A stretch of 64,000 bases of DNA from Acidobacteriota bacterium (GTDB taxonomy: Bacteria > Acidobacteriota > Terriglobia > Acidiferrales > UBA7541), in NCBI GenBank assembly GCA_003223325.1, contig QHYS01000023.1, positions 10,500-74,499 on the forward strand. The letters run 5' to 3'. Position numbers and translations under genes: made by a program. Numbering within the stretch: position 1 is the stretch's first letter; the number at the start of each line of letters is the position of its first letter. The notes under the pieces are model-generated. The model worked only from the letters and a program-made list of their open reading frames with translations. It was not told where the DNA came from and did no database searches. Shown piece by piece: positions 52,507 through 54,190 of the stretch.

Positions 52507-52766
52507 CGTAGCCGCTACAAACGCTCCTAAAAGTGTAGACGAACGAGCGGCGCAAATATTTCCGCATTGTGATCAGATTCTTCGCGCGGTAATTTCGATA
52601 TTAGCAAATTGCGGGGCACCGAAGTTTGATTGCGGTGTCTAACCTGCCAGAGCACGCCGCGGCGAACTCGTATAGACATTTGTCAGGCGGCGAAAGTCAC
52701 CGGCGGATGAGCTCTTCGGCACGAGGACGAATCGAACCGGCTTTGGCCGGGGATGAAGGCACGATC

Positions 52767-53493
52767 ATGTTTAGCGAGCTCGTAGAATCGATTACGCGTC
52801 CGAGCGATAAGAGAAAAAGATGGGCGCTGGTGGTCTCGGCCACGGCGCAACCAGTCTGCCTTCTGATTCTCATAGTGATTCCGCTCATTTATACGCAGGC
52901 ATTGCCGAAGGCGATCCTCAATACAGTGTTGGTCGCTCTCCAGGGAACTTCTTCGCAGCCCCCCGCGCAGGCGCCGCTTCCGAAGCCAGGCCCTCGCTCG
53001 GTGCGGCTGTTCGCTCATAGCGTGCTGATCGGGCCGGGGCACATTCCTCCTCACGTCAATGTCATCGAAGAGCCCCCCTTGCCGCCCGAGGCCCCGGCGG
53101 GTCCAGGACCAATCAACAGCAATTCGGATTTTGATCTCCTGAAGGTCGTGCCCAATTCGGCGGAGACGGTGCCCCGGCCGGCAGCTCCGCCGAGAGCGCT
53201 CGAGCGCGTGCCCGTGATAAGCACGATCGAAGCGGCAAAGCTGATCTCGCCGAATTCAGCCCCTCTATCCGCCACTTGCGATTCAGGCCCGCATACAAGG
53301 CAATGTAGTCCTGCACGCCATCATCGGCAGAGAAGGCGCGGTCAGCGAACTCCAGGTTCTATCGGGTCATCCACTGCTGGTGAACTCCGCGCTCGATGCC
53401 GTTCGGCAATGGCGCTATAGCGCGACGCTGTTGAAGGGGCAGGCTGTGGAGGTGGAGACAACGATCACGGTCAGCTTTGTCTTAGGGCAGTAG
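52767..53493 (+). pseudogene. TonB-like energy transducer, frameshifted
   Basis: From ATG 52767 the frame gives one membrane helix (VCLLILIVIPLIYT), a proline-rich spacer and VPVISTIEAAKLIS. The TonB C-terminal domain (LYPPLAIQARIQGNVVLHAI, VSELQVLSGHPLLV, ALDAVRQWRYSAT) is complete but in another frame, ending with TAG 53491-53493. Removing one C from TCGCCGAATT near 53250 restores the family sequence AKLISRIQPLYPP. So one extra base breaks the gene. A sequencing error is as likely as a real mutation. Intact, it would couple the proton gradient to outer-membrane receptors. Confidence 0.75.
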
Positions 53494-53716
53494 TTACCTC
53501 GGCTGGGAGTGCGGCGGCGCCGTTGGTGGTAAAGTCGCGGCGCGATCTTGTACCCCCAAGCAGCCAAAGTGCATCTGCATGCTTGGGTGATTGCCTCCCC
53601 AACGCTCGCGACGTTTTTTACCGCGCGAATGCTCGCGCTCGAGAGGCGCGCGCTGAGGACTCGGGGTTGCGGGTAAATACAACGGGTAGCCGAGCAGGTA
53701 TGCAAGGAGGACTCGG

Positions 53717-54190
53717 ATGGGCGAAGTCGTTTACGTTTCGCGGAGCCGGATCGAACGAAAGCAGGGGCCGCTGCGTCTGGCCCAGATTCCTGGCGAGGCG
53801 CAGCCGGTGGCCTTCAGCGTGCACGGCGCGATCGCCGAGCACTATAAGGTTGACCCCGCCAAGCTGCAGGGCTCGCACGCTTCCACCATTGATTACGCAA
53901 TCGCCGCCACGGCCGGTTGAATGGTGGGAACCTTCGGGGGCGCGCTGGAGGCGCGTCAAATCGATGCCAGCAATGGCAAGCTCGTGGGCGAAGTGACCGG
54001 CGAAGTCGAGACCGAGGAGGGCGTACTGGTGATCCGGCGCATTCACGTTGTGATGAAGCTGGCGGCGCCAGAAAGCTCACGCGCGACGATTGAACGCGTA
54101 CACGGAATGTACGCTATGCGCTGCCCGCTCTACCGCACGTTGCACAAGGCGATTCAGCTCAGCTCTTCGGTGGAACTGGTAGGCCGCTAA
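53717..54190 (+). CDS. OsmC-family peroxidase, candidate selenoprotein (TGA = Sec68)
   Basis: Reading through one in-frame TGA (53918-53920), this is a complete 157-residue OsmC/Ohr-fold protein that should reduce organic hydroperoxides. The first part ends HASTIDYAIAATAG; the second begins MVGTFGGALEARQI. Relatives have Cys between these segments: the first catalytic cysteine. The second conserved cysteine is retained (YAMRCPLYRTL). There is no other stop or frameshift, and AAGGAGG stands 6 nt before the ATG. A hairpin beginning 18 nt past the TGA fits a bacterial SECIS. Sec-containing OsmC-like proteins are known from selenoproteome surveys. A plain Cys-to-stop mutation is the alternative. 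Confidence 0.7.
53939..53957 (+). promoter_or_regulatory. Candidate bacterial SECIS element
   Basis: A 7-bp stem (GGCGCGC with GCGCGTC, one G-U pair) closes a 5-nt loop TGGAG at 53946-53950. The loop begins 25 nt after the TGA and has G in its second position; bacterial SECIS loops usually lie about 16-37 nt downstream with a G among the first two loop bases. It lies within the OsmC coding sequence, as bacterial SECIS elements do. Confidence 0.55.

Follow-up and report, generated by a model that had tools for sequence, protein, structure and literature searches.

Selenoproteins of the OsmC-like family were first reported from the Sargasso Sea as three sequences with a UxxT motif (PMC1088965), were encountered again as five sequences in the GOS metagenomes (PMC2398784), and are named as a family in reviews (PMC9312934, PMC13188914). 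They are an already known class, a point that was absent from the initial annotation of the DNA analyzed here, a stretch of 64,000 nucleotides from an acidobacterial genome (hereafter, the window). The gene that we describe resembles those of the Sargasso Sea and GOS family in its OsmC domain (PF02566), in the position of selenocysteine (Sec) within the OsmC redox motif, and in the bacterial SECIS-like hairpin behind the UGA. Whereas the proteins of that family carry UxxT, are marine and are outnumbered by their Cys homologs, those of the window clade carry UxxGT, are mostly acidobacterial and almost all contain Sec, a separation that is drawn solely from the published descriptions. The NCBIfam model NF041052 (OsmC_like_Se), an OsmC-related (seleno)protein named as Sec- or Cys-containing, has no listed match in the window protein, and when the clade members were scanned one by one, the best score among the members shown was 21.0 bits against a cut-off of 95. 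Because these scores are far below the cut-off and the motif is UxxGT, the window clade is a distinct, new subfamily within a known kind of selenoprotein. Our literature search found no paper joining OsmC, selenoproteins and Acidobacteria. The present analysis adds a well-supported, soil-centered selenoprotein subfamily that the curated NCBIfam models miss, and because these models fail to recognize it, its genes are likely annotated as two shortened ORFs.

The initial annotation described one reading frame that follows a good ribosome-binding site and is broken only by a TGA at codon 68. This is indeed what the sequence holds: the frame opens with ATG at 53717 and closes with TAA at 54188-54190, and codon 68 is its sole interruption. 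The features of the locus, as we interpret them, are as follows.

53704..53710, + strand: ribosome-binding site AAGGAGG, read in the sequence, 6 nt upstream of the start codon
53717..54190, + strand: OsmC-family selenoprotein gene, 157 residues, Sec at 68, TAA end (Pfam OsmC match, predicted fold)
53918..53920, + strand: TGA read as selenocysteine, the first catalytic Cys of OsmC (conservation in relatives, 1ukk alignment)
53939..53957, + strand: bacterial SECIS-like hairpin (pairing beyond protein constraint, compensatory changes, broken in Cys homologs)
54122..54124, + strand: TGC, second (resolving) Cys136 in the motif MRCPLYR (invariant in the alignment, 1ukk match)

Upstream, at 52626-53493, lies a TonB-like gene with its C-terminal domain in another frame from about 53260, a frameshift that is either natural or an assembly error. 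No conserved operon partner of the OsmC gene was found, its neighbors being common to only a few relatives.

The read-through protein matches the Pfam OsmC profile (PF02566) with 40.1 bits against a cut-off of 27.5, over residues 52-149 that span the TGA, and its AlphaFold2 model has a mean pLDDT of 94.5. The best Foldseek matches of this predicted model are OsmC and Ohr proteins, with an E-value of 3e-8 to the OsmC-like 1lql and TM scores of up to 0.85, to 2onf. The profile score, together with the predicted fold, places the protein in the OsmC/Ohr superfamily. A direct phmmer search of the protein against the PDB gave no match, but a family profile search did, and in its alignment codon 68 falls on the AGC cysteine of Thermus thermophilus OsmC (1ukk), whereas Cys136 falls on the second cysteine of 1ukk, in the motif CPVSRAL. 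The assignment of the TGA to the first catalytic cysteine thus stands, as does the retention of the second one (MRCP, codon 136, 54122-54124), which is invariant in the family alignment; the pair of catalytic residues typical of OsmC/Ohr proteins would accordingly be present as Sec68 and Cys136. The fold and both catalytic positions are common to the window protein and the OsmC/Ohr peroxiredoxins 1ukk, 1nye and 1usp, but the latter use Cys where the window protein would use Sec, and identity to solved OsmC structures in the fold search is low, at 8-18%.

We consider it nearly certain that the internal TGA encodes selenocysteine and that the gene is a selenoprotein of the OsmC/Ohr thiol-peroxidase superfamily. 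This reading, already proposed in the initial annotation, is supported by the conservation of the TGA, the hairpin, the machinery genes and purifying selection behind the TGA. In an independent genome collection, 31 of 32 relatives have TGA at the catalytic column, and these relatives belong to Acidobacteriota, Actinomycetota, Gemmatimonadota, Chloroflexota and Bacillota. Among 396 genomes sampled across the phylum, all 32 matches (E <= 1e-20) hold exactly one TGA; among 89 genomes of the family, six matches are stop-free, all of them in genus g5 and with TGC at the Sec site, and every other match has one TGA. An in-frame UGA thus occupies a conserved redox position at which homologs have Cys. 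Compared with its nearest relative, the window gene has a dN/dS of 0.086 before the TGA and 0.054 after it; in other pairs, some of which have saturated dS, the values on either side are about 0.06-0.25. Since dN/dS does not rise past the TGA, the part behind it must be translated. In all, about 70 related genes, from soil bacteria and other phyla, preserve both the TGA codon and the RNA signal, and relatives with a degenerate downstream region, which would have spoken for decay, are not what we find: they retain the TGA and the hairpin, and selection continues past the stop.

These observations bear directly on the possibility that a TGC or TGT became TGA in an ordinary Cys-containing OsmC gene, through a random nonsense mutation or an assembly error. 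The TonB-like ORF near 53260 does look frameshifted, and the draft assembly is fragmented into 377 contigs, but the same TGA recurs in dozens of separately assembled genomes, dN/dS behind it is low, and the hairpin is conserved. Given the conservation of the TGA across five phyla and the purifying selection beyond it, we reject this explanation, judged improbable from the outset, and assign it a negligible probability. The sole exception among the relatives, an acidobacterial copy (L062:1907-2146), has TCA (Ser) in place of TGA, a frame broken downstream, and has lost the C-terminal half of the family; it is probably a decaying copy or a sequence error.

The hairpin is as initially described: a 7-bp stem, GGCGCGC/GCGCGUC (arms 53939-53945 and 53951-53957), starts 18 nt after the TGA, and its loop UGGAG (53946-53950) starts 25 nt after it. 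Such a position just behind the UGA, with a G in the small apical loop, is what has been described for bacterial SECIS-like hairpins (PMC1088965). The window hairpin folded by itself stands out only slightly (z = -2.1, matched by 8 of 200 shuffles), and the evidence for it is strong by comparison across sequences, not from single-sequence folding. Among 70 distinct Sec sequences, 405 of the 420 cells formed by the six inner pairs are paired, and 63 sequences have all six intact. Synonymous recoding of the same proteins yields 277 +/- 9 paired cells, with a maximum of 302 in 500 trials, and independent shuffling of codon columns among sequences yields 396, with a maximum of 400; both are below the observed 405. 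Pairing therefore far exceeds what the protein requires, and compensatory changes occur. At one stem pair, G-C is replaced by A-U eight times and by A-C never (Fisher test, 1e-9, not corrected for ancestry); the eight cases, although not independent events, are distributed over at least two distinct regions of the tree. The 3'-side change in these cases replaces Ala with Val (GALEAR to GALEVR), such that the RNA pair is kept and the protein is altered. At another pair, C-G is replaced by U-A twice, the 5'-side change again being Ala to Val (GALEAR to GVLEAR). The subfamily shows protein residues changing so that the RNA signal stays preserved. Conversely, the six distinct Cys sequences keep GALEAR, and one or two pairs are broken in each (29 of 36 cells paired). 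In L059, L087, L092 and L142, all distantly related Sec sequences, this particular stem is poor.

With regard to the machinery for Sec insertion, the genome encodes SelA (454 bits), SelB (348.5) and SelD (368), but the tRNA-Sec could be followed only up to a contig break. Searches of the assembly found no complete tRNA-Sec gene (selC), and absence of the gene was entertained while there was no match at all; it was abandoned when the 5' third came to light on contig C156. The very end of this contig carries the first 30 nt of the tRNA-Sec of the genus with 100% identity, and the neighboring ~6 kb show synteny with the DNA that precedes the intact selC in G003, a genome of the same genus. All three same-genus genomes have an intact tRNA-Sec with the anticodon TCA. 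Across the phylum sample, tRNA-Sec was detected in 28 of the 30 other genomes that carry the TGA gene, compared to 209 of 365 that lack it (Fisher test, 5e-5); G174, G310, G009 and G021, in which the TGA gene occurs without a detected tRNA-Sec, are all draft assemblies.

Alternatively, a suppressor tRNA or a recoded genome might assign the UGA to a different amino acid (Cys or Trp), an idea to which the existence of a Cys clade at the same column and the lack of an intact tRNA-Sec in the window's assembly lend some weight. It is nevertheless very unlikely: selA, selB and selD are present along with the start of a canonical selC, the same-genus counterparts of which carry the anticodon TCA, and the conserved hairpin is needed by SelB, not by a suppressor tRNA.

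Several minor observations concern tRNA-Sec genes. The last 24-45 nt of tRNA-Sec recur in the genome itself (G000), with different flanks, at the following positions.

C299:5833-5879: repeat of the tRNA-Sec 3' end
C81:10602-10630: repeat of the tRNA-Sec 3' end
C50:206-233: repeat of the tRNA-Sec 3' end
C370:4771-4794: repeat of the tRNA-Sec 3' end
C206:9400-9423: repeat of the tRNA-Sec 3' end
C135:27893-27916: repeat of the tRNA-Sec 3' end

The sequences flanking the C206 and C370 repeats correspond to those on the 3' side of selC in G003 and G001. It looks as though mobile elements integrated repeatedly into the selC 3' end, which may explain the contig break. In addition, G004, G008 and G012 each have two tRNA-Sec matches above the cut-off.

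Under the Sec reading, with the machinery genes and the hairpin in place, SelB loaded with Sec-tRNA-Sec would bind this hairpin downstream of UGA codon 68 and insert selenocysteine at that codon. By analogy with the OsmC/Ohr mechanism, the Sec68 selenol may attack organic or lipid hydroperoxides, yielding a selenenic acid and then a Sec68-Cys136 selenenylsulfide, which, as in Ohr, might be reduced by a dithiol, for example dihydrolipoamide; the fold matches include PDB structures of Ohr together with this compound. We infer from this analogy a probable peroxidase activity, presumably more reactive thanks to Sec, but given the 8-18% identity, the substrate and the reductant are guesses. SECIS-driven insertion is generally incomplete, and the locus could therefore make two products, a truncated 67-residue peptide with a role of its own and a selenium-dependent full-length form. 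This possibility appears very improbable, if slightly less so than that of another amino acid: the TGA precedes most of the OsmC domain and Cys136 with it, so that the short peptide would be unable to adopt the OsmC fold.

Most members of the clade are acidobacterial and nearly all encode Sec, but one lineage has Cys in its place. When 78 proteins were placed in a maximum-likelihood tree, the six with Cys grouped together as a single clade (100/100), in one half of the tree and nested among Sec proteins. This nesting suggests a Sec-to-Cys reversal, no more than a suggestion given the midpoint rooting and the long branch that leads to the Cys clade. No tRNA-Sec was detected in three of the four g5 genomes checked (G019, G029 and G034); the fourth, G007, has tRNA-Sec and both a Sec copy and a Cys copy. 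An evolutionary scenario for which we see roughly even chances is that of an undescribed OsmC subfamily, ancestrally and almost exclusively Sec-containing and present in five or more phyla; one acidobacterial genus would have reverted from Sec to Cys, with loss of the SECIS hairpin and, in most of the members checked, of tRNA-Sec as well. The Sec-to-Cys direction has been called rare and, in prokaryotes, is documented mainly for FdhA and SelD (PMC13188914). With Sec genes and Cys genes, in genomes that have tRNA-Sec or lack it, the subfamily offers a clean comparative set in which to test why Sec persists or disappears. In the same tree, an actinobacterial copy (L054, from an Acidimicrobiia MAG) is nested with acidobacterial ones, beside L048 (Acidobacteria), reflecting either gene transfer or a mis-binned contig.
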